Assembly: GCA_026389715.1 (NCBI GenBank)
Contig: JAPLHK010000094.1
Location: 21,129 to 55,169 of the forward strand
Origin: Chloroflexota bacterium
Lineage (GTDB): Bacteria; Chloroflexota; Dehalococcoidia; GIF9; UBA5629
DNA length: 34,041 nt
Reading direction: 5' to 3'
In this document: positions 6,828 to 34,041 of the stretch, one piece after another
Layout of the letters: each line of letters opens with the position of its first letter
Position numbering within the stretch: position 1 is the stretch's first letter
Program-made: the position numbers and the translations under genes
Notes under the pieces: generated by a model
Told to the model about the DNA's origin: nothing
What the model saw: only the letters and a program-made list of their open reading frames with translations
Database searches by the model: none

Positions 6828-6857
6828 GGATATTAACCTCCTCTGCTATAAATCCTG

Positions 6858-9192: not shown

Positions 9193-9268
9193 TTAGTAAA
9201 CCTACCTCTCTCTTCGGATTATTACTATTGTTACCGGCATATCACAGATTGGGTCTATAACCTTTCGT

Positions 9269-9297
9269 AAGCTATGAATAGTGTCATTTTATGTCAA
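9269..9297 (-). promoter_or_regulatory. Weak promoter-like pair upstream of MFS gene
   Basis: A perfect TTGACA (9292-9297, minus strand) is followed after 17 nt by TAGCTT (9269-9274), a poor -10 with 3 of 6 matches. It lies in the 109-nt gap between the dehydratase stop and the transporter start, the largest gap in this operon, so an internal promoter is possible but weakly supported. Confidence 0.2.
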
Positions 9298-9301
9298 CTA
9301 C

Positions 9302-10930: not shown

Positions 10931-10942
10931 GTCTTTATTACC

Positions 10943-11647
10943 TCACAGTTTCCCGTATTTCTTATAAACATCCAGCAGGGACATGCCGTTGCGTATCTCC
11001 TGGCGCGACCTGCGCTCGGCCGCCACGATCTCCTCCGCTTTAACAACGACTTCCTCAAGATCGACGTCCTGCACCGGTATGACAACTACACCATCCCTGT
11101 CGGCAAAGATGATATCACCAGGTTTAACGGTAACACCGCCGCAATAGATAGGGCTGCCTACTCCCACCAGGTCGGTCCGGCCGATCGAGTCGGTTGGTAT
11201 ATTTCCTCTTGCCCAGACGGGGAACCCGATTTCCAGAGTACGCCGGATATCGCGGACAGGGCCATCGACAACCGCCGCCTTAACCCCGCCGACATACTTT
11301 GAGGTGGTGGCCATCAGCTCCCCAAAAGCGCCTGCTCCCCAGAAGCCGTTGGTACTGACCGCGATCACCTGTCCCTTCTGCATACTCCCAAAAACGGCTG
11401 ACAGCGCCTGCGCAACAAAAGCAGGATCGTATTCTGCAAGTTTGGTTGACTTCCTCGTCCTGGCCTCCTCGATGGTATAAGCAGGTCCGGCCACTACTGC
11501 ATCCGTGATAATAGACACAAACCCGGACTCCATGCTCTGGTGCATAAACCCCATATCATCCAGGACATCTGCTGCTGCAGGAGTATAGGTTTTTTCCAAC
11601 CTCCCGCAAAAAAGCAACACCTCTTCATGATTGTATTGGTTCGGCAT
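10943..11647 (-). CDS. RraA-like / HMG-type aldolase family protein
   Basis: A 234-residue protein of the RraA / 4-hydroxy-4-methyl-2-oxoglutarate aldolase superfamily (formerly 'dimethylmenaquinone methyltransferase'). The divalent-metal site motif is intact: GGVKAAVVDGPVRD with the Arg-Asp pair, then FPVWARG and VKPGDIIFADRDGVVVIP. Such proteins act as class II pyruvate aldolases or oxaloacetate decarboxylases. As the first gene of the sugar-acid operon, an aldolase or decarboxylase working on a keto acid is plausible. The start is ambiguous: GTG 11650 and ATG 11647 are adjacent and share GGAGG, at 6 and 9 nt respectively; I prefer the ATG. Confidence 0.8.
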   Translation of the reverse strand: MPNQYNHEEVLLFCGRLEKTYTPAAADVLDDMGFMHQSMESGFVSIITDAVVAGPAYTIEEARTRKSTKLAEYDPAFVAQALSAVFGSMQKGQVIAVSTNGFWGAGAFGELMATTSKYVGGVKAAVVDGPVRDIRRTLEIGFPVWARGNIPTDSIGRTDLVGVGSPIYCGGVTVKPGDIIFADRDGVVVIPVQDVDLEEVVVKAEEIVAAERRSRQEIRNGMSLLDVYKKYGKL

Positions 11648-11685
11648 CACCCGCTACCTCCGGTACGTTTTTATATCATAACCCT

Positions 11686-13475: not shown

Positions 13476-13511
13476 GTCAAACCTCCTGATTTGGTATCAT
13501 AATATCTTGAC

Positions 13512-13576
13512 GTCATTGCGAGGCGCCGCGGCAATCTCATTATCGCAGTAGATTGCTTCGCTTCGCTCGCAATGAC
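13512..13576. repeat. 65-bp palindromic dispersed repeat (MITE/REP-like), copy A
   Basis: The two ends are imperfect inverted repeats: GTCATTGCGAGGCGCCGCGGCAATCT on the left, and on the right the complement of GTCATTGCGAGCGAAGCGAAGCAATCT. A related half-element lies at 30403-30438. It starts 4 nt beyond the stop of ligase copy 2 and may act as a transcript-end hairpin there. Similar GTCATTGCGAG...CAATCT palindromes occur as dispersed repeats in several bacterial groups. Confidence 0.7.
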
Positions 13577-13579
13577 ATG

Positions 13580-15241: not shown

Positions 15242-15291
15242 TTGTCTGCCTCCTCACAAATTTTTTATACACTATATTAATATATTCGGCT

Positions 15292-15559
15292 TTATTTTTC
15301 CTGTTTGCCTTTCTCCTCTTCCTGCAGGACTCTGCGTAGCACCTTGCCCACGAACGTTTTGGGCAAATCCTTGCGGAATTCGATAAACCTGGGGACTTAA
15401 TAACCGGTCAGCTTCTCCCGGCAGAATTTCTGCAGCTCCCCGGGGCTAACGGTTTGTCCTCCCTTCAGTACAATCCAGGCCTTGACAGCTTCCATCTGCC
15501 TGGGATCGGCTATGCGGCACACCCGGGTCATAGCTTTTGTACCATAGATAGTCGGTCAT
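15292..15559 (-). pseudogene. Remnant of an acyl-CoA ligase (internal deletion, frameshift, nonsense)
   Basis: A start with AAGGA opens MTDYLWYKSYDPGVPHS, the family N-terminus. Then the sequence jumps directly, in another frame, to the family C-terminus: ADPRQMEAVKAWIVLKGG...REKLTGY, stop, VPRFIEFRKDLPKTFVGKVLRRVLQEEEK. Roughly 450 codons are missing. The two halves are out of frame (start codon at 15559, terminal TAA at 15294-15292), and the usual Lys codon in 'AYKVP' has become TAA. It is a dead copy between ligase copies 2 and 3. No ORF-track entry covers it. Confidence 0.85.
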
Positions 15560-15573
15560 TTCAGTGTCCTTAC

Positions 15574-15605
15574 AGCCGCCGCCTGCCAGTCAGCAGGCGG
15601 CGGCT
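15574..15605 (-). terminator. Perfect 13-bp GC-rich hairpin after ligase copy 3
   Basis: AGCCGCCGCCTGC, 6-nt loop, GCAGGCGGCGGCT: a perfect 13-bp stem 37 nt beyond the stop of copy 3 and just upstream of the remnant's start. No U-tract follows, so termination is not certain. Confidence 0.5.
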
Positions 15606-15642
15606 ACTTGATTCAGTCAGCCTTTGAGATCTTATGCAATTA

Positions 15643-17369
15643 TTATTTCTTGGCCTTTTCTTCCTCAACCAGGACACGGCGCAGCACCTTGCCCACCATG
15701 GTCTTGGGCAATTCACTGCGAAATTCGATGAATTTGGGTATCTTGTAGGCCACGAGCTTATCCTTACACCAGGCCTGAATATCTTCCGGTGTGATCTTTT
15801 TGCCTGATTCCATTACCACCCAGGCCTTGACAGCTTCTCCCTGCTTGGCATCCGGGATACCGGCCACGCAAACCTCGGCCACATCCGGGTGGGAACTGAT
15901 AGCCTCCTCCACCTCACGCGGCCATACCTGGAAGCCGCTGGGCTTGATGAGGTCTTTCTTACGCGAGGTAATGAAAAGGTAACCGTCCTCGTCCAGGTAT
16001 CCGATGTCACCCGTATACAGCCAGCCGTCCCTGAGCATATCGGCAGTTTCCTCGGGCTTGTTCCAATAGCCGACCATAAGCTGGGGCGCTTTGACGACGA
16101 TTTCCAATAGCCGACCATAAGCTTGGGCGCTTTGACGACGATCTCGCCCTCTTTGCCGGCCGGCAGATCGCCTTCACCTGTCTCGATATCTCCGATCCTG
16201 ACGACGACATCCGGAAGCGGCATGCCGGTGGAACCTTCCTTCCACTTGCCCAGGTACGGTGTGACGCAGGAAGCCATGGTAGTCTCGGTAAGAGCATAGC
16301 CTTCCACGATTCGGCCGCCGGTTAATGCCTCGAAGCGTTTCTTGGTGTCAGCCAGCAGGGGCGCCGCACCCGAGACACAGAACTTCATCGACTTGAAATC
16401 TATTTTCCCGGCTTTGACCCACGGGTGCTCAAGCAGCCCTATGTACAGGGCAGGCACCGCGGGGAAAAAGGTGGGTCTGTCGTGTTGAATGGTCTTAAGC
16501 AGGTCTTCGCGGTCGCGCGGGTTCGGCACCAACGACATGGCCACGTGGCCTACAACCGCTGTACTCATGACTCCGAAAGTTGAGTATGAATGAAACAGCG
16601 GCAGGAGAGTCATAATTATATCCTTGTAACTCTCTATTAAGGTGCCAAACCAGGCCATATACTGCAGCCCCGTGACAACCTGGGAATGGTGTGTGCCGAT
16701 TACGCCCTTGGGCGTCCCTGTCGTGCCGCCGCTGAACAGGATCAGCGCATAATCAGACGGCAGTACCTTTAAATCAGGCCTTTTGGCCCCGGCCTTTTGC
16801 TTTATCAAATCAAGCATCCAGTAATCGCCTTTTGCAAGCTCGATGTAGTGTCCTTCCTTCTTTTCCTTAACCAGTGTAAACAGCACATTGAGCACTGGCG
16901 GAAGGTAGTCTTTGATACTGGTGGCAATTACCAGCTTGACCTTGGTGCGAGGCTGCAGCTTCTTAAACTGATTGTAGAACATAGTCATTACGACCACTGT
17001 TTCGGCGCCACAGTCGTTGAGCGCGTGTTCCATCTCAGCATCAGTATACATAGGGTTCACGTGGACCAGTATGGCTCCCGCTTTCCAGACGCCCCAGCGG
17101 CAGATAATAGCCTGTGGTATATTCGGCATTATCAGCGCCACACGGTCTCCCTTCTTTACTCCCTTCTCCACCAGCGCCGCAGCGAATTCATCGCTCCACT
17201 TCTGCACTTCAGCATAGGAAATCTTGCGATTTTTAAAATAAAGCATGGGGTAGTCAGGATGTTCTTTGGTCGATTCATCAACATAATCGATGAGCGTCTT
17301 CTGCGGGTAGGGTTCCAGTGTCTTTGGGACTCCGGGATCGTAATTCTTTAACCATCGGTATTCTGCCAT
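15643..17369 (-). pseudogene. AMP-dependent acyl-CoA ligase, array copy 3, frameshifted by a 41-bp duplication
   Basis: The track shows this gene as two overlapping ORFs. The first (from ATG 17369, GGAGG 7 nt upstream) has the N-terminal domain, LILFSGGTTGTPKG and EGYALTETT, then goes out of frame after EGEIVVKAPKLMVGYW. The second resumes as EIVVKAPQLMVGYWNKPEETADM and carries the C-terminal domain to KTMVGKVLRR. The cause is an exact-length tandem repeat of 41 bp at 16061-16142. Deleting one copy gives a single 561-residue ORF, the normal size for this family. It is closest to copy 4, with nearly identical stretches such as RPRTKVKLVIATSIKDYLPP-type blocks. It is either a recent pseudogene or a functional gene with an assembly error. 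Confidence 0.85.
16061..16142. repeat. 41-bp direct tandem duplication inside ligase copy 3
   Basis: Two adjacent 41-nt units, each beginning TTCCAATAGCCGACCATAAG, at 16061-16101 and 16102-16142. They differ at one position (AGCTGGGG against AGCTTGGG), which changes Gln to Lys in the encoded peptide. As 41 is not a multiple of three, the reading frame is broken. Confidence 0.95.
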
Positions 17370-17408
17370 GCAACAACCTCCAAGCGATTTTATTTTACGA
17401 TGGAATCG

Positions 17409-17417
17409 ATTATACCA
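17409..17417 (-). promoter_or_regulatory. Extended -10 promoter element before ligase copy 3
   Basis: The minus strand reads TGGTATAAT, a consensus TGn-extended -10, about 40 nt upstream of the copy 3 ATG. No good -35 is visible because the 17420-17449 hairpin occupies that place. It could be an internal promoter of the array. Confidence 0.4.
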
Positions 17418-17419
17418 TA

Positions 17420-17449
17420 CTGCCCCCGGCCAATCAGGACCGGGGGCAG
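17420..17449 (-). terminator. Perfect 10-bp hairpin after ligase copy 4
   Basis: CTGCCCCCGG, 10-nt loop, CCGGGGGCAG, placed 16 nt beyond the stop codon of copy 4. There is no U-tract; an extended -10 element follows directly on the minus strand. Confidence 0.5.
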
Positions 17450-17465
17450 CTTACTACCGGTTATC

Positions 17466-19157
17466 CTATTTTTTGTTTTTAGCTGTCTCTTCTTCCTGCA
17501 GCACTCTTCTCAATACTTTGCCAACCATGGTCTTGGGCAGATCGCTACGGAATTCCACATACTTGGGTATCTTATAGGCTACTAATTTCTCCTTGCACCA
17601 GGCCTGAATCTCCTCGGCTGTGGCCGTTTTGCCGGCCTCCAGCACAATCCAGGCTTTGACTGCCTCGCCCTGCTTGGCATCGGGTATGCCCGCCACGCTG
17701 ACCTCGGCGACCGCCGGATGACTACTGATAACCTCTTCGACCTCCCTTGGCCAAACCTGGAAGCCGCTGGGCTTGATAAGGTCCTTCTTGCGGGAAGTGA
17801 TGAACAGGTAGCCATCGTCATCCATGTAACCCACGTCGCCTGTATAGAGCCAACCATCCCGCAGCATCTCTTTGGTCTCCTCCGGTCTATTCCAGTAGCC
17901 TACCATAAGCTGCGGGGCCTGGAAGATGATCTCTCCTTCTTTGCCGGCAGGCATTTCACCTTCGCCGGTCTGAATATCGCCGATGCGGATAATGACGTCG
18001 GGCAGCGGCATACCCACCGAGCCCTGCTTCCACTGACCCCGGTAAGGGGTGCAGGTGCAGGCCATGGTGGTCTCGGTAAGCCCGTAGCCCTCCACGATGC
18101 GCCCACCGGTGATGTCTTCGAACCTCTTCTTGGTTTCATACAACAGTGGCGCCGCGCCCGAGTTGCAGCATTTCATTGAGCTGAAATCAACCTTGCCTGC
18201 CTTGACTGCCGGGTGCTCCAGAAGCGCGATAAACATTGCCGGAACCGCCGGGAAATAGGTAGGTTTATCGTGCTGAATCGTGGCAATGACATCGTCCCGG
18301 TCACGCGGGTTGGGCACCAGCGACATCGCACTATGGCCGATGATAGCCGTGCACATCACGGCGTAGGTCGCGAATGAATGGAACAGCGGTAAAACAAGCA
18401 TCATCACGTCCTTGTAGGGCTCGGCGATCTCGCCAAACCACCTGTTGAACTGCAAGCCGGTGATGACCTGTGAATGGTGGCTCCCCACCACACCCTTGGG
18501 AGTGCCGGTAGTGCCGCCGGAGAAAAGTATCAGCGCGTTATCGCCGGGCAGGACCTTAACATCGGGCCGTTTGGCCCCTGCTTTCTCTTTTATAAGATCC
18601 GTCAGCCAAAAATCACCGGCCTGCAATACGATGCGATGACCCTCTTTCTTCTCCATGGCCAATGTGAAGAGCACCTTGAGCACCGGCGGGAGATAGTCCT
18701 TGATACTTGTGGCGATTACCAGCTTAACCTTGGTACGCGGTTGCAGTTTCTTAAACTGGTTGTAAAACATGGTCATAACAACCACCGTTTCTGCGCCGCA
18801 GTCGTTGAGCGCATGCTCCATTTCCGCCTCAGTGTACATCGGGTTCATATGCACCAGGATAGCGCCGACCTTCCAGGCGCCCCAACGGCAAATGATAGCC
18901 TGCGGTATATTCGGCATGATCAGCGCCACGCGGTCGCCCTTCTTTACACCTTTGGCTGCCAGCGCCGCGGCGAACTCATCGCTCAACTTCTGGATCTCGG
19001 CATAGGACATCTTCCTCTTCTTGAAAAGCACCATGGGGTAATCGGGGTGCTCCTTGACAGCCTCATCAACGTAGTCTACCAGGGTCTTCTGCGGATAGGG
19101 CTCCAGGGTCTTGGGAACGCCTTTGTCATAGTTATTTAACCACCTTTTGTCAGACAA
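17466..19157 (-). CDS. AMP-dependent acyl-CoA ligase, array copy 4
   Basis: A 563-residue ligase when read from TTG 19157. I prefer this to the track's ATG 19196 because TAGGAGG lies 7 nt before the TTG, and the resulting N-terminus (SDKRWLNNYDKGVPKTLEPYP) lines up with the other copies, whereas the extra 13 residues have no counterpart or ribosome binding site. Motifs: LILFSGGTTGTPKGVVGSHHS, EGYGLTETT, GWLYTGDVGYMDDDG, SRKKDLIKPSGFQVWP, KTMVGKVLRR. It is nearly identical to copy 3 over long stretches (PQAIICRWG, MEHALNDCGAETVVVM), so these two are recent duplicates. Confidence 0.9.
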   Translation of the reverse strand: MSDKRWLNNYDKGVPKTLEPYPQKTLVDYVDEAVKEHPDYPMVLFKKRKMSYAEIQKLSDEFAAALAAKGVKKGDRVALIMPNIPQAIICRWGAWKVGAILVHMNPMYTEAEMEHALNDCGAETVVVMTMFYNQFKKLQPRTKVKLVIATSIKDYLPPVLKVLFTLAMEKKEGHRIVLQAGDFWLTDLIKEKAGAKRPDVKVLPGDNALILFSGGTTGTPKGVVGSHHSQVITGLQFNRWFGEIAEPYKDVMMLVLPLFHSFATYAVMCTAIIGHSAMSLVPNPRDRDDVIATIQHDKPTYFPAVPAMFIALLEHPAVKAGKVDFSSMKCCNSGAAPLLYETKKRFEDITGGRIVEGYGLTETTMACTCTPYRGQWKQGSVGMPLPDVIIRIGDIQTGEGEMPAGKEGEIIFQAPQLMVGYWNRPEETKEMLRDGWLYTGDVGYMDDDGYLFITSRKKDLIKPSGFQVWPREVEEVISSHPAVAEVSVAGIPDAKQGEAVKAWIVLEAGKTATAEEIQAWCKEKLVAYKIPKYVEFRSDLPKTMVGKVLRRVLQEEETAKNKK

Positions 19158-19220
19158 GTTAAAACCTCCTAATGATTTGATTTTATCGTCAAGCATTATA
19201 CGCCTAACTAACCCATTGGC

Positions 19221-20927
19221 TCACGGTTTGGCAGCCGCCTTTTGCTTAGCCAGCTCTTCCTCTACAAGCACCCGTTTCAATATTTTACCCACCAGGGTCT
19301 TGGGTAATTCCGCCCTGAATTCAACATGCTTGGGCACCTTGTAGGCCGTCAGCTTCTCTCTGCAATGCAACTGAATTTCCTCGGCGGTAGCCGTTTCCCC
19401 CTGGCGCAGCACCACCCAGGCCTTGACTGCCTCGACCTGGTATGGATCAGGTATTCCTGCCACTCCAACCTCGGAAACCTTGGGATGCATGCTTATTACC
19501 TCTTCAACTTCCCTCGGCCAGACCTGGAAGCCGCCGGGCTTGATCAGCTCCTTTTTACGTGAGGTGATAAACAGGCAACCCTCATCATTCAGGTAGCCGA
19601 CATCCCCTGTATGCAGCCAGCCGCTGCGTATCATATCGGCGGTGGCCTCAGGCCTGTTCCAGTAGCCCTGCATCATCTGCGGGCACTGAGCAATTATCTC
19701 GCCCTCCTGGCCGGCAGGCATATCCTTCTCACCGGTTTCAACATCAACGATACGCAGTATAACATCCGGCAGAGGCACCCCAGCCGAACCCGGGGTCCAT
19801 TTACCCTCCACCGGTCCCAGCGTGATGGCAGCTGTAACCTCCGTCATACCGTACCCCTCAATAAGCTTGCCGCCAGTCAGTTCCTCAAAGCGCCGCTTGG
19901 TTTCGGGCAGCAATGGGGCCGCTGAGGCCACGCAAAGCTTCATCGATTTAAAATCGACTTTGCCCGCCTTTACCGCCGGGTGCTCCAGCAGTGCAATAAA
20001 AAGCGTCGGCACGGCCGGGAAGTAAGCCGGCCTGACGGTCTTGATTGTCTTTACCAGGTCATCACGGTCGCGCGGGTTGGGCACCACGGCCAGCGGGTTG
20101 TGCCCCATGATAGAAGTGCCCATCACGCCGGCAAAGCCGTAAACATGGAATAGCGGCATGATCATCATCACCACATCATCCCACTCGGTCAATACACTAT
20201 CGTTCCACACCTTGAGCTGCCAGGCCTCGGCTATCAGGCATTTGTGCGTGAGGATAACGCCCTTGGGCACGCCCGTAGTGCCGCCGCTGAAAAGCAGCAA
20301 CGCCACGTCGCCCGGCAACGGCTTATTGACGGGCGCGGCATGCCCGGCATGCTTGAGCATAAGGTCGGCTAAGTAAACATCATTCTGTGTAAGCTTTATG
20401 CGGTGACCTTCTTTTTTCTCCTTTAGCAATGTGAACATCAAGGCCAGGAAGGACGGCAGGTATTCCTTGATATTGACAGCTATCACCAGGCGCAGGCTGG
20501 TGCGCTCCTGTATCTTCTTCACCGTGGCATAGAAGGGTGTCAGCACCACCGCCACCTCCGCGCTGCATTCTTTCAACACATGTTCCAGCTCATACTCAGT
20601 GTACACGGGGTTGAGCGGCACGGGGATGGCTCCCGCTTTCCAGGCGCCGAACGACGCGATGAAACCCTGAGGGCAATTGGGCAGGAGGATGGCTACACGG
20701 TCTCCTTTCTTCACGCCGTTAGCCTGCAGAGCTGCCGCGAATACATTAAATAGCCTGACCATTTCACCATAAGTAACTGTATTTCCCTTGAAGAACAGGA
20801 AAGGATGGCCGGGCTTCTGCTTTGCGGCATCTTCCACGACGTCTAAAAATGTCACTGCAGGATACGGTTCCAGGGTATGCGGAACCCCTTTATCGTAGCT
20901 TTTAAACCACGGGTAATCAATGGCCAT
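19221..20927 (-). CDS. AMP-dependent acyl-CoA ligase, array copy 5
   Basis: A 568-residue ligase with LLLFSGGTTGVPKGVILTH, EGYGMTEVT, GWLHTGDVGYLNDEG, hinge SRKKELIKPGGFQVWP and KTLVGKILKR. Departures from its neighbours are LHTGD for LYTGD and PGG for PSG at the hinge. It retains the hydrophobic FLALMFTLLKEKKEG segment after the IAVNIKEYLPS block. The ATG start is backed by GGGGAGG 7 nt upstream. The gap to copy 4 is 63 nt with no hairpin, unlike the ends of copies 1-4, so copies 6, 5 and 4 are probably read through on one transcript. Confidence 0.9.
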   Translation of the reverse strand: MAIDYPWFKSYDKGVPHTLEPYPAVTFLDVVEDAAKQKPGHPFLFFKGNTVTYGEMVRLFNVFAAALQANGVKKGDRVAILLPNCPQGFIASFGAWKAGAIPVPLNPVYTEYELEHVLKECSAEVAVVLTPFYATVKKIQERTSLRLVIAVNIKEYLPSFLALMFTLLKEKKEGHRIKLTQNDVYLADLMLKHAGHAAPVNKPLPGDVALLLFSGGTTGVPKGVILTHKCLIAEAWQLKVWNDSVLTEWDDVVMMIMPLFHVYGFAGVMGTSIMGHNPLAVVPNPRDRDDLVKTIKTVRPAYFPAVPTLFIALLEHPAVKAGKVDFKSMKLCVASAAPLLPETKRRFEELTGGKLIEGYGMTEVTAAITLGPVEGKWTPGSAGVPLPDVILRIVDVETGEKDMPAGQEGEIIAQCPQMMQGYWNRPEATADMIRSGWLHTGDVGYLNDEGCLFITSRKKELIKPGGFQVWPREVEEVISMHPKVSEVGVAGIPDPYQVEAVKAWVVLRQGETATAEEIQLHCREKLTAYKVPKHVEFRAELPKTLVGKILKRVLVEEELAKQKAAAKP

Positions 20928-21002
20928 TATTCAGCCTCCCCAGATATTTTATAGTCATCAGCAATGGATATCAGTTTAATACCACCTTCAGTTAAACGCC
21001 GC

Positions 21003-22703
21003 TTACTTCTTATCGTCAGTATCCCCGGCCTTTTCCTCCTCAAGTAAAACACGCCTGAGTATTTTGCCTATCTGCGTCTTGGGCAGCGCGTCGCGGAACT
21101 CTATCCGGCGCGGTACCTTGTAGGCCGCCAGCTTGGCCTTGCAGTGCTCCTTCAATTCATCGGCGCTGCAGGTCATGCCTGCGTTTAAGACTACCCAGGC
21201 CTTTACGGATTCGCCCTGATACTGGTCGGGTACGCCGGCCACGCCTGCCTCCATGACAGCAGGATGCTCATGTAAAACTTCCTCGATCTCGCGCGGCCAA
21301 ACCTGGAACCCGCTGGTCTTGATGATCTCCTTCTTGCGGCTATGCAGGAAGAGGTTCCCATCTTCGTCCAAATAACCGATATCGCCTGAATACAGCCAGC
21401 CGTCCCGCATCATGTCCGCGGTTTCCTGCGGCTGGTTCCAGTATTCTTTCATCAGGTTGGGCGCCTGGAAGCATATCTCGCCAAGCTGACCGGGCTTCAT
21501 GCTGCCCCGGCCGGTCTCGGCATCGGCAATCCTTATCACCACATCCGGCAGCGGCATGCCGACCGAGCCTTCCTTGTTGGCGCCAATTACGGGGTTAACC
21601 GTAGCAGCCTGCATGCACTCGGTCATGGTGTAACCTTCCAGCAGCCTTCCGCCAGTCATACTTTCAAAGCGTTTCCTGGTCTCCGCCATCAGCGGGGCAG
21701 CGCCCACGATGCAGAGCTTCATGCTCTCCAGCGTGACCTTGCCCGATGTCACCAGCGGGTGGTTCATAATGCCGATGTAGAAAGTCGGCACGCCCGGCAT
21801 GAAGGTCGGCTTATATTTCTTTATGCTCTTGACCACGTCCGTGAGGTCGCGCGGGTTGGGTATAATGACACATGAGGAGTGGTTAACCATGGCTGTGCCC
21901 ATGGCGCCCACACAGCCAAATACGTGGAAAAGCGGCATGGTCAGCGCCACTTTATCTTCCCATTGCTCAAGCACCGGGCTCAGCCAGGCACAGATCTGCA
22001 TGGCCGTCATAACCAGCGCCTGGTGAGTCCCCACAGCTCCTTTAGGCGTCCCTGTCGTTCCCCCACTGAAGAGGATGACTGCCGGGTCCGAGGGTTTCAC
22101 CTCAATGGCCGGTCGCCTGGCATTCCTGTACTTCTTAAGTACATCCTGGAACCACGCGTCGCCATGTTTAAGGCCGATGCGGTAGCCCTCCTTTTTCTCC
22201 CTGGCCAGCGTGAAAAGCAAGCGCAGGGGCTGAGGCAGGTATTCCTTGATATTGGTGGCGATAACAAATTTGACCCTGGTCTTGCCCTGGATATTCTTAA
22301 CGGCGTTATAGAACGGGTTAAGGACGATCACCGCCCGGGCATCGACCTCGTTCAAAGCGTGTTCGATCTCATGTTCAGTGTAAAGCGGGTTGACCGGGAC
22401 GGCTATGGCGCCCGCTTTCCAGATTGCCTGGAAACCAAGTATCATCTGGGGACAATTGGGCAAAAGCATAGCCACACGTTCGCCTTTCTGCACGCCCATG
22501 GCAACCAGCGCAGTGGCCAGCGCATTGCTCTGGCGGATAAAGTCCGCATATAGCACTTTGGAACCCTTGAAATACAACATGGCGCGGTAGGGTTTAGCTT
22601 TGGCGGATTCATCGACGATCTCGATCATCGTCTTTTGCGGGTAAGGTTGAAGCGTCAGGGGCACGCCCTTATCGTAATTCTTCAACCACGGATAGTCCGT
22701 CAT
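21003..22703 (-). CDS. AMP-dependent acyl-CoA ligase, array copy 6 (promoter-proximal)
   Basis: A 566-residue ligase, first gene of the array transcript. Motifs: VILFSGGTTGTPKGAVGTH, EGYTMTECM, GWLYSGDIGYLDEDG, SRKKEIIKTSGFQVWP, KTQIGKILRR. It differs from the others by Ser for Thr in LYSGD and by KTSG for KPSG, with Cys after TE in the A5 motif (TECM), so its acyl pocket probably differs. The N-terminus MTDYPWLKNYDKGVP fits the family. The ribosome binding site before the ATG is weak (GAGCAG-like), but no better start exists. The promoter at 22782-22809 lies about 80 nt upstream. Confidence 0.9.
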   Translation of the reverse strand: MTDYPWLKNYDKGVPLTLQPYPQKTMIEIVDESAKAKPYRAMLYFKGSKVLYADFIRQSNALATALVAMGVQKGERVAMLLPNCPQMILGFQAIWKAGAIAVPVNPLYTEHEIEHALNEVDARAVIVLNPFYNAVKNIQGKTRVKFVIATNIKEYLPQPLRLLFTLAREKKEGYRIGLKHGDAWFQDVLKKYRNARRPAIEVKPSDPAVILFSGGTTGTPKGAVGTHQALVMTAMQICAWLSPVLEQWEDKVALTMPLFHVFGCVGAMGTAMVNHSSCVIIPNPRDLTDVVKSIKKYKPTFMPGVPTFYIGIMNHPLVTSGKVTLESMKLCIVGAAPLMAETRKRFESMTGGRLLEGYTMTECMQAATVNPVIGANKEGSVGMPLPDVVIRIADAETGRGSMKPGQLGEICFQAPNLMKEYWNQPQETADMMRDGWLYSGDIGYLDEDGNLFLHSRKKEIIKTSGFQVWPREIEEVLHEHPAVMEAGVAGVPDQYQGESVKAWVVLNAGMTCSADELKEHCKAKLAAYKVPRRIEFRDALPKTQIGKILRRVLLEEEKAGDTDDKK

Positions 22704-24316: not shown

Positions 24317-25273
24317 TTAATACCCGGCGGTGGCATCCAATCCTTTAGCCTTGAATATCCCGATTATCCCGCTCAGGCGCTCTTCAGTTAGAGGCGTGCG
24401 CCCGCTCAACTGGTAGGCCCTGCCCAGCGACTGGTACTTGGCCCTGCCCCACTCGTGGTAGCCCAGCAGTGATACTTTCTCGGCCTTCATGCCCTGCAGC
24501 CTTCCGGCCAATTCCTGCATATAACGGTCACTGTCGTTGTAGCCAGGGATGACGGGCACTCTTATCCAGATCCTGGACATATTGGCCGCCATTAACTTCT
24601 CCAAATTGGAGAGGATAAGCTTATTGTCGGTTCCGGTGCCGTCGCGGTGCTCCTCACTGTCGATATGCTTTACATCGAAAAGCACCAGGTCTGTATATGC
24701 CAGCGCTTTCTCCAATGTTTCCCAGGGTACCTGTCCGCAGGTGTCCAGCGCTGTTCTGAAACCGCGCTCTTTGAGATTGCGGAGTAACTCCAGGGCAAAA
24801 TCGGCCTGTAGCAAAGGTTCGCCGCCCGACAGTGTGACGCCTCCTCCCGAGTTGCGGTAGAAGAGTTCATCCTTTGAGCATTCCTCAATCACTTCATCCA
24901 CGGTCATCTGCCGGCCGGCCAGCTCAAGTACGTCCTCCCAGCAGGCTTCGACGCATTTCAGGCAGAGGTCACATTTAACCCTGTCTAAACGCAGACCGCT
25001 GGCAGCCAGGGATAGCGCGCCCGGCGCACATACCTTGATGCAGCGGCCGCAGCCATTGCAGCGGGTTTCCCTGACCATCAACTCCGCAAAGGTATTAATC
25101 GATTCCGGGTTTGAGCACCACTTACAGCGCAGGGGGCAACCCTTGAAAAAGACCGTGCTCCTGATGCCGGGCCCGTCATGTATGCTGTAGCGCTGGATAT
25201 TGAAGACCACGCCTTTATTACCGGCGCTGCCCTTCTCCCCGCTGCCTGCAGACTCTCTGGAGTCTAAAAGCAC
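24317..25273 (-). CDS. Glycyl radical enzyme activase (radical SAM, PflA-like)
   Basis: A 318-residue activating enzyme that abstracts a hydrogen from the glycyl radical enzyme. The radical-SAM cluster motif is CPLRCKWC (Cys46, Cys50, Cys53) after YSIHDGPGIRSTVFFKG. It is followed by a two-[4Fe-4S] ferredoxin insertion (Cys72/75/78/82 and Cys101/104/107/111), the arrangement of activases for non-PFL glycyl radical enzymes, and by GGVTLSGGEPLLQ for SAM binding. The start is GTG within the last codons of the glycyl radical enzyme gene (10-bp overlap), with AGGA 8 nt upstream; this implies translational coupling. The N-terminal 20 residues (SRESAGSGEKGSAGNK) are low-complexity, so a later start is possible. 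Confidence 0.92.
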   Translation of the reverse strand: MLLDSRESAGSGEKGSAGNKGVVFNIQRYSIHDGPGIRSTVFFKGCPLRCKWCSNPESINTFAELMVRETRCNGCGRCIKVCAPGALSLAASGLRLDRVKCDLCLKCVEACWEDVLELAGRQMTVDEVIEECSKDELFYRNSGGGVTLSGGEPLLQADFALELLRNLKERGFRTALDTCGQVPWETLEKALAYTDLVLFDVKHIDSEEHRDGTGTDNKLILSNLEKLMAANMSRIWIRVPVIPGYNDSDRYMQELAGRLQGMKAEKVSLLGYHEWGRAKYQSLGRAYQLSGRTPLTEERLSGIIGIFKAKGLDATAGY

Positions 25274-27698: not shown

Positions 27699-30344
27699 TC
27701 ACACCCTGATGGACAGGTCATCCAGCGGGTAGCTCATACAGGGATGGATATAGCCGAATTTTTGGTCGGCCTGGCGGTAATGCACGCGGGCCGGGGCAAA
27801 GACCTTACCAGATATCAGCCTGGTGCGGCAGGCCGTGCATTCTCCCGACCGGCATACGGCGGGGACCACGATGCCGGCACGTTCAAGCGAGTTCATCAGC
27901 GGCTCACCGGCTTTAGCCTTGACCTTCTTCCCGCTCCTAACCTCGGTAATCACGAACTCCTTTGAGGCCTGTATACCCGGCCAGGCCGGGTCTTTAGTAA
28001 CATCCTGAGGCGGACCGTAGGCCTCCTGTTTCCGGCGCCTGGCCGGTACGCCCAGCTTGACCAACGCTGCTCCGCAAAGCTCGTACATCAGAGCCGGGCC
28101 GCAGGTAAACACCGTCTTGCCCCTGAGATCTCCTGACAGCGAGAATATGACCTTGTCATCAAGTAAGCCTGTGGCTCCTTTCCAGCCGGATGGAGGCTCA
28201 CTTATCACGTAATCAACTTTTATATTCTTGTGCTTGCCTGCAAGCTGCTGTAATTCTTTATCAAAGATTATGTCGTCCGGCGTGCGGCTGCCGTAAATGA
28301 GGTGGATATTCAATTTGGACTTTTTCTCCACCATTTCACGGATGATGGACATGAAAGGCGCGGCGCCGCTGCCGCCGGCCAAAAAGACGAGGTCGGTAGA
28401 ATCGATCAGAGGCTCATAGTAGAAATAGCCGCTGGGGCCAGTCGATTCGAAGCTGTCGCCCACCTTGACCTTATCGAGCAGGTAGGACGATACAAATCCA
28501 CCCCCTACCCTGCGTACTGTAATATCATAGTAAGACTTGCCGGGCGCCGAGGAGATGCTATAGGGACGCGAGGTCTTCACGCCACCGATATCCACAAAAA
28601 GGTTGATGTATTGCCCGGCGCGGAACCATGGTAGCTTGCCGTCTTTTGATTCCAGCCTGAAGGTCTTGGCGCTGGCCGTTTCTTTAATGATCTCTTTAAC
28701 TTTCAGCTTCAGCCTACGCGGGTGAATCGCGGCAACAGCCTTTTCCTGCGGGGTAATGGTGTCCTTGAGCTCCCCTGGCTTTACCTTCTGCTTTTCCAGT
28801 GTATCCTTGATGCCGGGTATCACCTCGGTATCCCAGGAGCCCTTCTCCATGTCCTTCAGCACCTCGCGTGAAGCCATGGCACCTGTGGCAATGCAGGTCT
28901 CAAAGCCGCCGCCGATATTCACCCAAGCGTTGGCAAAGTAAAGACCTTCCAACGGGCCCCTCATGGGCATATGCAGAAAACCCGTGCCGGTAAAGTTCTC
29001 GTCGAACCCGATGATGCTGCCGCGCGGGTTTCCCGTGTAGCGCATGTTGGTCAGCGGCGTGGCTATCTCGATCACCTCGATATGGTCCCTCAAGCCGGGG
29101 GCCGCCTTTTCCGCCAACTTAAGTGAATTTTGGGCCATCCTATTCTTGGCCTCAACATATTCCGATGGGGATAGTTTCAACCAGTGATCGTCGTAGGCAA
29201 TCTGGGTAACTACCACCGAGGCCGTTCCTTTGGGCGATACGGTTGGGTCGACCACATTGTATGCCACCACTAGGTTGAAATCCGGCCCGACATGGACCGA
29301 GTGAAGCCCCTGCTCGTACTGCATGTCCAGGTCATAACTTGTGTTAACAAAATTCTCGTGGACGTTCAGCCCGACCTCCTGGCACGCGCAATCCAGGCCC
29401 AGGTATATGTTGAAGGTGCTGGCGCCGCCGGTCCAGCCACCCAAACGGTTGAGGTACCAGCCCGGCATGTTATCCCGGCCGATCAGTTCAAGCGCAGTGG
29501 TGACGGGGTTGGCGCTGCAGACGACGTGCTGAGTGGCTATCTCGGTGCCGTCCTCGGTCAGCACACCGCGCACTTTGCCGTCTTTAACTAAAATCTTCTT
29601 TGCGCCGTTGCTGAACCAGGCCTCGCCTCCGTAGGATTCCATGGTAGCTATGAACGCCTGCGAAAGGTTCTGCGAGGTCCCCCTGACATGGGCCGCACCG
29701 AACCTGATGTAGCTGACCAGCGTGATGGCATACATAAGGAATGCTACCTTTGAAGGGGGCTGTGCCAAATAGCCCCAGAGCTGGCCTATGACGGCGCGTG
29801 CCTTCTCATCTGAGACCATGGGGTTGAGGACCTCGGAGAGCGTCTTACCGAAGTAGGCCATCAGTTCGGGGTACTCGGAAGAGTTCTGCATCACGGCTTT
29901 CATACCTACCCGCTGGGCTTTCATGGCCTGGCGGGCAAATTCGAAAATGGTCTGCGTAAACTTCTTTATGCCGTCAGCCTCCCTGGGAAACTGGTTGCAG
30001 AGAGCGTCCTCGTAGTTCTGCCTGCCAATGGGCACCTCAATAGTAAAGTCAGGGAAGATGCTGCGGTAAAAGTCTGGGATATGCAGGATGTCTACCCTGT
30101 CCGAAACGCCGCTATCATGCAATATCTTCCAGACGGACCCCTTGTCTGTTTCGGTCCCATACCCGGAAAGCTGGTGCAGGGCTATCTCGAATTCGAAACG
30201 ACCCCTGAGGAACGAGGTGGCATAGCCGCCCGGCACGTTATGTTTCTCCAGGACAACCACCTTTTTACCGGCCTTGGCCAGGTAGGTTGCCGCGGATAAT
30301 CCACCCAATCCCGCCCCTACGACAACGGCATCAAAGTCCTTCAC
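27699..30344 (-). CDS. CrtI-like FAD oxidoreductase fused to FNR module and 2Fe-2S ferredoxin
   Basis: An 881-residue three-module flavoprotein. Residues 1-~500 are a phytoene desaturase/retinol saturase-type enzyme: dinucleotide fold VVVGAGLGGLSAATYLAKAG, HNVPGGYATSF, and the C-terminal FAD-binding YFANAWVNIGGGFE. After a linker (~500-545), residues 546-760 form a ferredoxin-NAD(P)H reductase (RPYSISSAPG flavin motif, GGSGAAPFMS and TCGP nucleotide sites). Residues 795-881 are a plant-type ferredoxin with Cys831, Cys836, Cys839 and Cys869. The fusion would feed NAD(P)H electrons through the 2Fe-2S centre to the CrtI flavin, suggesting a self-sufficient double-bond reductase (saturase), or the reverse flow. 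The start is GTG with AAGGAGG 9 nt upstream. It is the first gene of the operon with the glycyl radical enzyme and activase. Confidence 0.85.
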   Translation of the reverse strand: MKDFDAVVVGAGLGGLSAATYLAKAGKKVVVLEKHNVPGGYATSFLRGRFEFEIALHQLSGYGTETDKGSVWKILHDSGVSDRVDILHIPDFYRSIFPDFTIEVPIGRQNYEDALCNQFPREADGIKKFTQTIFEFARQAMKAQRVGMKAVMQNSSEYPELMAYFGKTLSEVLNPMVSDEKARAVIGQLWGYLAQPPSKVAFLMYAITLVSYIRFGAAHVRGTSQNLSQAFIATMESYGGEAWFSNGAKKILVKDGKVRGVLTEDGTEIATQHVVCSANPVTTALELIGRDNMPGWYLNRLGGWTGGASTFNIYLGLDCACQEVGLNVHENFVNTSYDLDMQYEQGLHSVHVGPDFNLVVAYNVVDPTVSPKGTASVVVTQIAYDDHWLKLSPSEYVEAKNRMAQNSLKLAEKAAPGLRDHIEVIEIATPLTNMRYTGNPRGSIIGFDENFTGTGFLHMPMRGPLEGLYFANAWVNIGGGFETCIATGAMASREVLKDMEKGSWDTEVIPGIKDTLEKQKVKPGELKDTITPQEKAVAAIHPRRLKLKVKEIIKETASAKTFRLESKDGKLPWFRAGQYINLFVDIGGVKTSRPYSISSAPGKSYYDITVRRVGGGFVSSYLLDKVKVGDSFESTGPSGYFYYEPLIDSTDLVFLAGGSGAAPFMSIIREMVEKKSKLNIHLIYGSRTPDDIIFDKELQQLAGKHKNIKVDYVISEPPSGWKGATGLLDDKVIFSLSGDLRGKTVFTCGPALMYELCGAALVKLGVPARRRKQEAYGPPQDVTKDPAWPGIQASKEFVITEVRSGKKVKAKAGEPLMNSLERAGIVVPAVCRSGECTACRTRLISGKVFAPARVHYRQADQKFGYIHPCMSYPLDDLSIRV

Positions 30345-30379
30345 CTTTTGTAACCTCCTTATTCATGTGTAAGATATTT

Positions 30380-30385
30380 ATTATA
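30380..30385 (-). promoter_or_regulatory. -10 element for the fusion-GRE-activase operon
   Basis: A perfect TATAAT on the minus strand (GGATATAATAAAT), about 36 nt before the GTG start. No convincing -35 is seen; the region 17 nt upstream lies at the edge of the palindromic repeat, so an activator may be required. Confidence 0.4.
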
Positions 30386-30402
30386 TCCAAATTGCGACGC
30401 AC

Positions 30403-30438
30403 AGATTGCCGCGGCCACTGCGGCGGCCTCGCAATGAC
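30403..30438. repeat. Dispersed palindromic repeat, copy B (half element)
   Basis: On the minus strand GTCATTGCGAGGCCGCCGCAGTGGCCGCGGCAATCT. Both termini match copy A at 13512 (GTCATTGCGAGG... and ...GCGGCAATCT), with a self-complementary GGCCGC-rich centre. It fills the gap between the crotonase gene's stop and the next operon's promoter. Confidence 0.6.
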
Positions 30439-30445
30439 AGTATGC

Positions 30446-31186
30446 TCAGCGTCCCTTGAACTGCGGTAAGCGTTTATTGCGGAAAGAGTCCAGCCCTTCC
30501 CGGAAATCCTCGCTGCCCATCAGGAACTTCTGCGCATAAGTCTCGAAGTAAAGCTGCTGTTCAAGGGTATTGATCAGGCCGTTTTGCACAGCGCGTTTAA
30601 TTTGCTTGAGCGCCAGCGGCGGGCCCTGTACTATCCTGTTGGCCAGCGCTTCGGCCTCCTCCATCAGCTTCTCATGCGGCACAACCCGGTTTACCATGCC
30701 GATACGCTCGGCTTCGCGTGCATCGATGGAATCGCCGGTGTACATGTATTCGTAGCAGCGCCCGGTGCCCAGCAGCCGCGGCATCAGGAAGGTACATCCG
30801 CAGTCCGGTATCAGACCCCGCATCACGAAAGCCAGGTTAAAGATCGCTCTTTCGGAGGCGATGCGTATATCAGAGAGCAGGGCGAGGGATACACCACCAC
30901 CCGCCGCCACACCGTTGACGGCAGCGATGACCTCAAGTGTTTCCTGGAGCTTTCCCTCCTCCGCTGCCTGGTTAAAGAGCACTATATCGGCACCGGTGCA
31001 GAAGCCCTTGCCCGCGCCGGTGATGATAAGGGCTCGAACCTCATCATCCTCCTGTATCTCGCGAAAGATACGCGGCATCAGTTCGTTGCTTATCTCCGCC
31101 GTCAGGGCGTTCAGCCTTTGCGGCCGGTTCATGGTCAGGATGGCAACGCGGTTTTTTTTCTCAAGTATCAGGCCTTCATATTCCAT
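30446..31186 (-). CDS. Enoyl-CoA hydratase/isomerase family protein (PaaG-like crotonase)
   Basis: A 246-residue crotonase-fold protein acting on an acyl-CoA. The oxyanion-hole segments GFCTGAD (61-67) and AAVNGVAAGGG (88-98) are present. The block FVMRGLIPDCGCTFLMPRLLG (Asp128) resembles the PaaG-type isomerase group, where an Asp replaces the hydratase Glu pair; Glu146 (GRCYEYMYTG) fits the other acidic position. Between GAD and VNG there are only about 24 residues, 15 or so fewer than usual, and the customary 'KPVIAAVNG' lacks its Lys-Pro, which points to an in-frame deletion of the helix before the active site. AAGGA 7 nt upstream supports the ATG. It probably belongs to a transcript with the NMO and ligase genes upstream. 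Confidence 0.85.
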   Translation of the reverse strand: MEYEGLILEKKNRVAILTMNRPQRLNALTAEISNELMPRIFREIQEDDEVRALIITGAGKGFCTGADIVLFNQAAEEGKLQETLEVIAAVNGVAAGGGVSLALLSDIRIASERAIFNLAFVMRGLIPDCGCTFLMPRLLGTGRCYEYMYTGDSIDAREAERIGMVNRVVPHEKLMEEAEALANRIVQGPPLALKQIKRAVQNGLINTLEQQLYFETYAQKFLMGSEDFREGLDSFRNKRLPQFKGR

Positions 31187-31242: not shown

Positions 31243-32385
31243 TCAGGCCTTTATGGTCAACCCGGCGGGGAACTTCTCCCCCAGTATCTTTACGGCTCCG
31301 CCGATAATGTCGTCCATGACTTCCTGTGTGCTCCTGACCTTCTTGATCAGCCCGGTAACCTGTCCGGCGAACATGGGGAAGTACTCCGTCTCGCCCTTTT
31401 CCATCATGCCCTGCACCAGATCTGCCATCAGCATGCTCTGCAATGGCATGGGCAACGTCTTAAGCCCCGATTTCTCCCAGGCCTCATCAAGTTTGTTCTT
31501 AAAAGCGCGCGTGGTCTTGCCGCTGTAAATCCGGGTTATCTGTTCCGCTTCCTCGTCCGAATCGATCAGCTTGCGGTAATAGGCGTCAATAGTCGCCCTA
31601 TTTAGCATGCCGAGCTCGACGAAGTCCACGAAGCATTCATGGGTGGCCAGAAAAGCGGTCCCGCACCAGGCGCCGATAGCCCCCAGTGCCAGCGCAGCTA
31701 CCAGGCCACGTCCGTCAGCTATCCCGCCGGCAGCCACCACAGGGGTGGGGGCAACGGCGTCGACAACCTGCGGGACAAGCGCGAAGGTGCCGATCCTGCC
31801 TGTATGTCCGCCAGCGTCATGTCCCTGGGCAATGATGATATCCGCACCCATCTTTTTAAGCTTGACCGAGTTGCGCACGTTGCCGCACAAAGACACGATC
31901 TTGATGCCGGCCTCGTGCGCCTCGGGGATGAGCCAGTCCGGTGTGCCGAGGCCGAGTGCAAAGAAAGGCACCTTCTCCTCTTTGACCACCTGGAACTGGC
32001 TGCGGCCGAACTCCTCAGAGATGGGCCATTCTTTCATACGGGCACCCTCCACCCCGAAATCCCTGGCCATCTTTTGAACAAATGCGGTATGCTCGGGAGG
32101 TATATATTCTTTTATCTTGCCCAGGTCGAAGTCTTTCGGAATGGCCGCGGGGAGCAGGATATCCACGCCGAAAGGCTTGTCTGTCAGTTCACGCGTTTTG
32201 CGTATCCAGGACCGCAATTCGTCGGGCCACAGGAAAGTGGCGCCCAGCATCCCCAGTCCTCCGGCATTGGAGACGGCTGCCGTGAGCGTGTAGCCACCTG
32301 CCGTGCCCATGCCGGCCAGCATCACCGGATACTCGGCACCGAGCATATCGCACAGCGCGGTGCGGAAGACAGGGCGTTTATTCAT
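31243..32385 (-). CDS. Nitronate monooxygenase / 2-nitropropane dioxygenase family flavoprotein
   Basis: A 380-residue TIM-barrel FMN protein. Motifs: YPVMLAGMGTAGG at the N-terminus, SNAGGLGMLGA, IIAQGHDAGGHTGR (187-197, with the family's His), and the phosphate-binding VVAAGGIADGRGLVAALALGA. Such enzymes oxidise nitronates, but relatives include the FabK enoyl-ACP reductase and many uncharacterised flavin enzymes near acyl-CoA genes in anaerobes, where an oxygenase makes little sense. Beside a crotonase and an acyl-CoA ligase, an enoyl-CoA or quinone reductase-type role is equally possible. AAGGAG 4 nt before the ATG confirms the start. It is 15 nt downstream of the ligase stop. Confidence 0.85.
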   Translation of the reverse strand: MNKRPVFRTALCDMLGAEYPVMLAGMGTAGGYTLTAAVSNAGGLGMLGATFLWPDELRSWIRKTRELTDKPFGVDILLPAAIPKDFDLGKIKEYIPPEHTAFVQKMARDFGVEGARMKEWPISEEFGRSQFQVVKEEKVPFFALGLGTPDWLIPEAHEAGIKIVSLCGNVRNSVKLKKMGADIIIAQGHDAGGHTGRIGTFALVPQVVDAVAPTPVVAAGGIADGRGLVAALALGAIGAWCGTAFLATHECFVDFVELGMLNRATIDAYYRKLIDSDEEAEQITRIYSGKTTRAFKNKLDEAWEKSGLKTLPMPLQSMLMADLVQGMMEKGETEYFPMFAGQVTGLIKKVRSTQEVMDDIIGGAVKILGEKFPAGLTIKA

Positions 32386-32400: not shown

Positions 32401-34041
32401 CTATTTGAACTTACCGCTTAATATGGTTCTGATCTCCCTCTTGAGAATCTTCCCCACTGCGCTGGTGGGTAGCTGGTCGAAGAATTCTATGGTCTTGGGC
32501 ACCTTGTAGGGGGCAACCTTGCCCTTAAGGTACTCGATTATCCTGGCTTTCTCGGCGTCGCTTTTCTCTATGCCGGGCTTGAGAATGATGGCCGAGGCAA
32601 CTATCTCGGTCCCCGGCCTGTCGGGATTATGTATTCCCACAGTGGCACACATATCCACGTCCGGGTGCTCGCAGATTACATCATCCAATTCGCGGGTAAA
32701 CACCTTGAACCCCGAGACGTTGACCATGTCCTTTATCCGATCCACAATGGTTACGAACCCCTCATCATCCATCTTGCCCACGTCGCCCGTGTAGAACCAG
32801 CCGTTCCGCAGCGCGTTGGCCGTCTCGTCCGGTTTTCTGAAATAGCCCTTGGTGAATACCTGCGGCCCCCTCACAGCTATCTCGCCCGGCTCATTGAATG
32901 GCACTGGTTCACCGGTTGCGGGGTCAATGATTTTTATATCGGTATCGGGGAAGGGTATACCCACCGCACCCGGTATCTTCTTGCCATAGCGGGGATTGGC
33001 CGTTATGATCGGGCTGGTCTCGGTCAGGCCGTACACTTCCACCAGCTTGTTCTCACCTACAATTTTCTCAAAATCCTTGATATATTCGGGAGGGAACGGG
33101 GCGGCGCCGCTGGCGAAATACTGGACGTCGCTGAAATCATAGGCTTTGAAGCCCGGCTGTTTGATCAGCTCCAGGTAAACCGTCGGGACGTTGCCGATAA
33201 TACTCGGCCGGTGCTTCTTCATGGCCTTGATGATAAATTGCTGATCGCGCGGGTTGGGCACCGCGACCTGTGTGTTGGCCTTGGCAAATAGCGCCATGCA
33301 TATCACAAGTCCGGCAATATGAAATAGCGGGAACGCCGTCATACCGACCAACTCACCCATCGGGGCATCTAACCAGGTGTTTATCTGGAACATCTGTGAG
33401 GTCATGTTGCGGTGCGTCAGTTCCGCGCCCTTGGGCAGGCCGGTGGTACCGCCGGTGTACTGCATCACGCAGGTATCATCCATACTTACTTTTTCCGATA
33501 CAGGGTCGGCGGGCAGGCTCTTCATGACCTGCTTGAAATCGTATATTTCTATTCCCGGTATAGGCAGCACCTTGCCTGTGGGGATCTTCTTCAGCATTTT
33601 CCCCATGGTGGCCAGCACCGGGGAGAGGTAATCGGCGATGCCCGTAAATACAATGGCCTTAAGCTCCGTGCCTCCGATGCTCTTGATAATTCGCGGGTAA
33701 AGCGCATCGAGGGTCACCAGCACCTTGGCACCGGAATCCTTGAGCTGGTGGTTGAGCTCGTCAGCAGTGAGCAGCGGGCTGACGCCGGTGAGCACACAGC
33801 CTGCCTTCTGTATGCCGACCAGGCCGATGTAATAAGCAGGTAGATTGGGAAGGTTTATACCTACTGTATCGCCTTTCTTCAGACCGATCTTCTTGAGCAG
33901 GTTGGCGAAGCGGTTGGACATCTCGTCCATCTGCTTGAAAGTGAAGGGGGTGCCCATGTAGTACAGCGCCACGCGGTTGGGAAATCCCTTAAAGGCCGGC
34001 TCAATAGCCTCCCAGAACGTTTTATCTGGGTATTGCAGGTT
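32401..34041 (-). CDS. Acyl-CoA ligase of a separate subfamily (5' partial)
   Basis: An AMP-dependent ligase cut by the right window edge. The track start (GTG 33972) is internal, because the frame stays open to 34041 and encodes NLQYPDKTFWEAIEPAFKGF, an ordinary ligase N-terminal region. P-loop MQYTGGTTGLPKGAELTH, VYGLTETSP, GWFYTGDVGKMDDEGF, hinge DRIKDMVNVSGFKVF and C-terminal Lys in SAVGKILKREIR are all present. DRIKDM-VSG and YTGG place it in the FadD/long-chain group, apart from the SRKKD-type ligases of the 11.8-22.7 kb array, so it is not a recent duplicate of them. It is followed closely by the NMO-family gene, probably in one operon with the crotonase gene. Confidence 0.9.
   Translation of the reverse strand, partial: NLQYPDKTFWEAIEPAFKGFPNRVALYYMGTPFTFKQMDEMSNRFANLLKKIGLKKGDTVGINLPNLPAYYIGLVGIQKAGCVLTGVSPLLTADELNHQLKDSGAKVLVTLDALYPRIIKSIGGTELKAIVFTGIADYLSPVLATMGKMLKKIPTGKVLPIPGIEIYDFKQVMKSLPADPVSEKVSMDDTCVMQYTGGTTGLPKGAELTHRNMTSQMFQINTWLDAPMGELVGMTAFPLFHIAGLVICMALFAKANTQVAVPNPRDQQFIIKAMKKHRPSIIGNVPTVYLELIKQPGFKAYDFSDVQYFASGAAPFPPEYIKDFEKIVGENKLVEVYGLTETSPIITANPRYGKKIPGAVGIPFPDTDIKIIDPATGEPVPFNEPGEIAVRGPQVFTKGYFRKPDETANALRNGWFYTGDVGKMDDEGFVTIVDRIKDMVNVSGFKVFTRELDDVICEHPDVDMCATVGIHNPDRPGTEIVASAIILKPGIEKSDAEKARIIEYLKGKVAPYKVPKTIEFFDQLPTSAVGKILKREIRTILSGKFK

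Follow-up and report, generated by a model that had tools for sequence, protein, structure and literature searches.

A CrtI-type oxidoreductase fused to its own reductase and ferredoxin in Dehalococcoidia, a candidate NAD(P)H-dependent saturase encoded next to a glycyl radical enzyme

Which reaction is served by a CrtI-type flavoprotein that carries its own reductase and ferredoxin on the same polypeptide? To our knowledge, the CrtI superfamily consists mainly of oxidases, quinone-linked desaturases and isomerases, and the electron donor of its reductive members (e.g., retinol saturase) is an open question. Such a protein is encoded on contig JAPLHK010000094.1 of an uncultured Dehalococcoidia bacterium (Chloroflexota, GIF9, UBA5629; assembly GCA_026389715.1), of which a stretch of 34,041 nt, here called the window, was analysed. 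A sequence-only reading had described a single ORF of 881 residues that combines a CrtI FAD domain with an FNR module and a four-Cys 2Fe-2S ferredoxin, and this description was borne out by Pfam domains and motifs on the minus strand (Table 1). The ORF starts with GTG and matches NAD_binding_8/Amino_oxidase at residues 8–496 (3.1e-19), FAD_binding_6 at 545–643 (2.3e-13), NAD_binding_1 at 654–755 (1e-20) and Fer2 at 803–873 (2.4e-8). Intact motifs are the FAD motif GAGLGG of the CrtI half (at residue 10), RPYS (593), GGSGAAP (657) and CGP (748), together with the four ferredoxin cysteines in the spacing C831-x4-C836-x2-C839-x29-C869. About 13 full or partial copies with 62–87% identity were found in related genomes, and since these MAGs were assembled independently, the fusion is no assembly accident. 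For the whole protein, AlphaFold2 yielded a mean pLDDT of 90.5 and a pTM of 0.91 from a 54-row alignment, a confident prediction also for the way in which the three modules pack against each other. No match spanning both halves was present among the 50 best Foldseek matches (top query-normalised TM 0.49).

Table 1. Features of the CrtI-FNR-ferredoxin gene set and their positions in the window.
Feature	Position	Strand	Basis
Acyl-CoA ligase (AMP-binding), head of gene set; open frame extends to window edge	32401..33972	minus	Pfam
NMO/FabK-like FMN protein, recurrent in cluster	31243..32385	minus	PF03060 2.6e-63
Crotonase-fold protein, PaaG/isomerase-like	30446..31186	minus	Pfam/profile matches, residue comparison
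CrtI-FNR-ferredoxin fusion (P0001), 881 aa	27699..30344	minus	ORF, profile matches, AF2 model
CrtI-type FAD oxidoreductase domain, residues 1-502	28839..30344	minus	Pfam 8-496; TIGR02730/TIGR02734 full-length, below cut-off; Foldseek
His57 in signature RGRFEFExxLH	30174..30176	minus	Present in nearly all family rows
FNR module (FAD_binding_6 + NAD_binding_1), residues 541-770	28035..28724	minus	Pfam, profile and solved-structure matches
Plant-type [2Fe-2S] ferredoxin module, residues 796-881, C831/C836/C839/C869	27702..27959	minus	Fer2 match, motif
Glycyl radical enzyme (GRE), 798 aa	25264..27660	minus	PF02901 1.2e-162, PF01228 1.6e-26
GRE activase, radical SAM, PFLE_PFLC subfamily	24317..25273	minus	TIGR02494 352 bits vs cut-off 174

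The nearest solved relatives of the first half are the CrtI-type desaturases 4rep (gamma-carotene desaturase; Foldseek TMt 0.85) and 4dgk (CrtI; 0.72), which support a CrtI fold. Fold and FAD-binding motif are common to these enzymes, CrtISO and the fusion, whereas the carotenoid enzymes stand alone without an FNR-ferredoxin part and the fusion has no carotenoid context. The best CrtI-type profile was TIGR02730 (carotenoid isomerase) with 129 bits against a cut-off of 587, and TIGR02734 (crtI_fam) reached 121 bits against 238, so both curated cut-offs for CrtISO and CrtI were missed. Fold and TIGR02734 similarity would suit a phytoene desaturase of a carotenoid pathway. However, phytoene/squalene synthase (PF00494) was absent from all nine Dehalococcoidia and seven of eight other genomes searched, with control genomes positive, which makes a carotenoid role unlikely. 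The missed TIGR02734 cut-off and the catabolic neighbours also speak against it, and we discount a phytoene desaturase almost entirely.

The second half has the architecture of PaaE/GbcB-type reductases, i.e., FAD_binding_6 and NAD_binding_1 followed by a C-terminal plant-type Fer2, and in profile searches it came closest to GbcB, the PRK10684 NADH oxidoreductase and PaaE, all of them reductases that hand on electrons from NAD(P)H to a partner. Its nearest solved relatives are NADH-cytochrome b5 reductase, dioxygenase-reductase flavoproteins and plant-type ferredoxins; the Foldseek matches include phthalate dioxygenase reductase (2pia) and the self-sufficient P450s 6kbh and 6laa. Reductases of the PaaE/GbcB/HmpX type share domain order and motifs with the C-terminal 350 residues of the fusion, but serve separate oxygenases or other partners, whereas their counterpart here is tied to a CrtI domain. 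The P450s of the CYP116B type (6kbh, 6laa) likewise join a catalytic domain to a phthalate-reductase-like FNR and a ferredoxin; they are heme monooxygenases which need O2, whereas the catalytic domain of the fusion is a flavin domain and its host is probably an anaerobe.

Within the genus of the window the gene set runs from the acyl-CoA ligase through the NMO/FabK-like protein and the crotonase to the fusion, followed by GRE and activase, and the ligase is retained in the loci L031–L035, L043 and L044. The crotonase-fold protein carries in GLIPDCG an Asp which we take to be of the PaaG type and lacks the Glu pair which we take as the hydratase mark; the Dehalococcoidia crotonase is therefore probably a double-bond isomerase. 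The window copy is short, in frame, of about 20 residues present in its closest orthologues just before VIAAVNG. The intergenic region between crotonase and fusion (30345–30445) contains a palindrome-like element of the type CATTGCGAG...GGCAATCTG. In three genomes (G009, G019, G028) GRE and activase are encoded a few kb upstream, and genes for SCP2 proteins, an iron-dependent alcohol dehydrogenase (Fe-ADH) and AOR follow the fusion. The Asgard loci L036, L104–L106 and L112, whose neighbour clusters each take their name from a single scanned member, contain varying sets of SCP2, Fe-ADH, AOR, crotonases, thiolases with ChsH2-type partners, BKACE and acyl-CoA ligase. The gene context is catabolic and CoA-linked, composed of acyl-CoA ligase, PaaG-like isomerase and NMO, to which the relatives add SCP2, Fe-ADH, AOR and thiolases with ChsH2 partners.

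Because the isomerase-like crotonase is the steadiest neighbour of the fusion and TIGR02730 its top CrtI-type profile, the CrtI half might act as a redox-neutral, CrtISO-like isomerase that shifts double bonds or converts them between cis and trans, with FNR and ferredoxin just keeping its flavin reduced. We regard this as decidedly unlikely. To equip each protein molecule with a stoichiometric NAD(P)H chain would be costly if needed for priming only, both isomerase and CrtI profile scores fall far under their cut-offs, and the genomes checked for phytoene synthase show no carotenoid synthesis.

Elsewhere in the window, six tandem acyl-CoA ligase genes with 45–78% mutual identity lie on the minus strand at 11778–22703, downstream of RlmN. 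The ligase heading the CrtI gene set is the seventh in the window and more distant from these six. One array ligase (15643–17369) is split over two overlapping frames, with the AMP-binding domain at 15813–17369 and the C-terminal domain at 15643–16107, which is a frameshift or an assembly error. An apparent sugar-acid catabolism region (69–11650) encodes PfkB/GatZ-like, PfkB, KDPG aldolase, LarA-like, MBL, Zn-ADH, epimerase, MFS, IlvD/EDD dehydratase and RraA-like aldolase proteins.

A survey of genomes for the same fusion, as the sequence-only reading had proposed, revealed it to be conserved in one family, whereas the pairing of its two halves proved not to be unique. The fusion was found in 12 of 30 genomes of one Dehalococcoidia family, and among 149 related genomes the full form is confined to this family, to which the window belongs; close records that bear a name are MAGs of Dehalococcoidia or Chloroflexi. 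Neither 400 Chloroflexota genomes nor 343 genomes of the class yielded a full-length fusion outside the family, although a miss is possible with the few candidates scored per genome. The Chloroflexota beyond the family gave CrtI-only matches at 27–35% identity and one reductase-only match. Unfused pairs are widespread in Asgard archaea, where 58 of 196 genomes had a match at an E-value of at most 1e-45. Many of these matches are adjacent separate genes for a CrtI protein (~500–525 aa) and an FNR-ferredoxin (~365–415 aa), and several such pairs lie in the same frame, parted by a single stop codon. Some Asgard loci (L097, L099, L100, L102) have two or three consecutive CrtI-family genes, and a reductase gene is not always present. 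Within the Lactobacillales the pair is rare (2 of 199 genomes; Levilactobacillus loci L038 and L039), and a plasmid copy in Ligilactobacillus (Lactobacillaceae) has a reductase of 276 aa, apparently too short for a ferredoxin. The Levilactobacillus pair is divergent from a gene for a GntR/FadR_C-type regulator, whose weak FadR_C matches (6e-5, just below cut-off, and 8e-6) hint at fatty-acid sensing.

Trees of the CrtI and the FNR-ferredoxin halves agree in their main groups, the Dehalococcoidia clade and the Asgard groups, and in each tree Levilactobacillus nests with one and the same Asgard group. Owing to this agreement the two halves appear to have travelled together, by inheritance as well as by transfer, the pairing thus being old, and the same groups in both trees indicate that CrtI and FNR-ferredoxin work together. 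The separate pair probably came first and was fused later and locally; a split of an older fusion into separate genes is the less likely alternative.

In which direction would the electrons flow? The redox couples of C=C/C-C are near 0 V or above and that of NAD(P)+/NAD(P)H is at -0.32 V. A chain ending in NAD(P) favours reduction by roughly 0.3–0.4 V, i.e., C=C reduction by NAD(P)H releases much energy, and the opposite reaction would have to be driven strongly uphill. The suggestion of a self-sufficient saturase or desaturase therefore holds for the electron chain on one polypeptide, but its two options are not symmetrical. Lactobacilli are, as far as we know, fermenters with no known hydrocarbon oxidation, and a pair next to a FadR_C-type regulator in such organisms fits the reduction of an unsaturated lipid. 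Based on the GbcB/PRK10684/PaaE-like reductase, the downhill reduction of C=C, the FadR_C-like regulator and the absence of phytoene synthase, we favour a CrtI-superfamily ene-reductase (saturase) that is self-sufficient, depends on NAD(P)H and serves the catabolism of lipids or isoprenoids, and judge the chances of this reading to be about even. The intact FAD, FNR and [2Fe-2S] motifs, the whole-chain model, the agreement of the two trees and the catabolic, CoA-linked neighbours speak for it as well. NAD(P)H would reduce the FAD of the FNR module, from which the tethered [2Fe-2S] ferredoxin would take up single electrons and hand them on to the CrtI-bound flavin, which in turn would reduce a C=C bond in a hydrophobic substrate, either a lipid or an isoprenoid acid. 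The adjacent acyl-CoA ligase and PaaG-like isomerase suggest that the substrate is probably a CoA thioester. Electron-flow direction, substrate class and role are all inferred; the enzyme may open unsaturated skeletons to beta-oxidation, act as an electron sink, or both. The weak FadR_C matches and the short plasmid-borne reductase count against a saturase. Nothing relevant to a link with fatty-acid biohydrogenation was found in the open-licence PMC literature searched.

The assumption that no described pathway combines these elements was only partly upheld. A CrtI-FNR-ferredoxin protein, characterised or otherwise, was not described in the open-licence PMC literature searched, but an analogue made of separate proteins is known. 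As the CrtI half also keeps its FAD motif, neither of the two findings that were to refute the sequence-only reading came up. By its parts list, the closest characterised analogue is the limonene dehydrogenase CtmAB of Castellaniella defragrans with the ferredoxin CtmE and the reductase CtmF (PMC4109377), a precedent for a CrtI-type flavoprotein joined to a 2Fe-2S ferredoxin chain. Both systems bring together a CrtI/COG1233-type flavoprotein, a 2Fe-2S ferredoxin and an NADH:ferredoxin oxidoreductase, and CtmAB likewise serves an oxygen-independent route, a terpene pathway continued by alcohol/aldehyde dehydrogenases, CoA ligase and beta-oxidation (PMC4109377). The Ctm proteins are separate, with two CrtI-like subunits and an oxidative hydroxylation, whereas the fusion is one chain with one CrtI domain; its reductase is of the PaaE/GbcB type, with CtmF set beside it by description and not by fold. 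The delta24 sterol desaturase of Sterolibacterium denitrificans, a relative of limonene dehydrogenase with a flavin-linking His near its N-terminus, differs from the fusion as an alpha/beta enzyme without iron-sulfur cluster or attached reductase, and was found by its authors to have no similarity to phytoene desaturases (PMC11061730).

That this nearest analogue works oxidatively (PMC4109377) is an argument against a saturase. The fusion might accordingly hydroxylate allylic methyl groups with water or desaturate isoprenoids, with electrons leaving through ferredoxin and FNR to NAD(P)+, a reading we consider fairly unlikely. Besides the shared parts list, with mutants in ctmA, ctmB and ctmE failing on limonene (PMC4109377), Fe-ADH, AOR and CoA ligase downstream in the relatives would suit a sequence from alcohol over aldehyde and acid to CoA ester. 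Furthermore, His57 seems to lie in the region of the flavin-linking His of CtmAB and the delta24 desaturase, as judged against the published covalent-flavin motif G-F-L/R-x-N/S-T/L-H-A (PMC11061730) and not against the CtmAB sequence. This motif is matched in part only (RGRFEFEIALHQ); the surroundings of His57 often read [AS]-L-H-A/E/Q and the GF part differs. The gene set of the window contains one CrtI domain, as opposed to the two different CrtI-like subunits of the limonene dehydrogenase/delta24 subfamily, of which CtmA/CtmB is a heterodimer. Electron transfer to NAD(P)+ would run strongly uphill, and limonene dehydrogenase requires an acceptor of positive potential and may fail in highly reduced settings (PMC12583861).

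The remaining element of the gene set is the GRE, whose gene begins 38 nt downstream of the fusion and is overlapped by the activase gene by 10 nt. The superfamily marks are present, with Cys442 in NNCMVP and the radical Gly774 in RVAGFAAYF. Pyruvate formate-lyases are marked by a Cys-Cys pair in the active site; here a single Cys442 is preceded by Asn. The C-V-E class (dehydratase/lyase/decarboxylase) was discarded, since NNCMVP lacks the Glu found two residues behind the Cys in GCVEP of the aligned glycerol dehydratase. In fumarate-adding X-succinate synthases, fumarate is bound by an Arg that follows the Cys at a distance of 15 residues (BSS C493/R508, MASS C477/R492; PMC12358834), and the GRE carries Ala at the position given by residue count (457), which also excluded this assignment. 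As far as tested, the GRE would represent an uncharacterised class that fits no known class among those compared. Its structure model (mean pLDDT 62, 9-row alignment) was set aside. Among the matches listed from a plasmid collection there was no labelled benzylsuccinate synthase, only other glycyl radical proteins such as CutC, HypD and PFL.

The expectation of a joint pathway of GRE and fusion was supported for the Dehalococcoidia family and did not extend to most of the unfused pairs. In the 30 family genomes, GRE (at least 70% identity) and fusion co-occur with 2 × 2 counts of 11/1/1/17 (Fisher p = 2.5e-6, a guide only because the genomes are related), and in both exceptions the gene present sits at a contig end. 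The closest Asgard GREs (61–68%) occur in three genomes in which the CrtI family is present as well (p about 0.025), not adjacent in the loci read, and in two Asgard loci a GRE of 44% identity lies next to a CrtI gene. A different GRE of 988 aa (27% identical) with its activase is divergent from a CrtI/FNR-ferredoxin pair in a further Asgard locus (L108:3957–9996). Since unfused pairs in Asgard archaea and Lactobacillaceae mostly have no GRE beside them, the GRE is a part-time partner, which within the Dehalococcoidia family probably acts in the same pathway as the fusion. GRE activases require one-electron donors, and the adjacency and strong co-occurrence of GRE, activase and fusion could mean that the FNR-ferredoxin part chiefly feeds low-potential electrons to the radical-SAM activase. 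This is very improbable, because most Asgard loci and Levilactobacillus have the pair without a neighbouring GRE, a second Dehalococcoidia fusion copy (L044) has none beside it, and the conserved CrtI half would be left unexplained.

With a saturase as the preferred reading, we tentatively propose, at somewhat less than even chances, a new enzyme system common to Asgard archaea and bacteria. It would consist of a CrtI-type ene-reductase with a dedicated NAD(P)H-FNR-[2Fe-2S] chain, in Dehalococcoidia as one protein, and in combination with a GRE from an uncharacterised class may open an anaerobic route for the degradation or hydrogenation of unsaturated lipids or isoprenoids. With the NAD(P)H chain naturally built into one polypeptide, both the electron donor and the direction of the reaction can be tested directly. 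The gene set, with a GRE that by its active site belongs to none of the known classes compared, suggests that sediment Dehalococcoidia and Asgard archaea have in common an anaerobic pathway for lipids or isoprenoids which is still unmapped.
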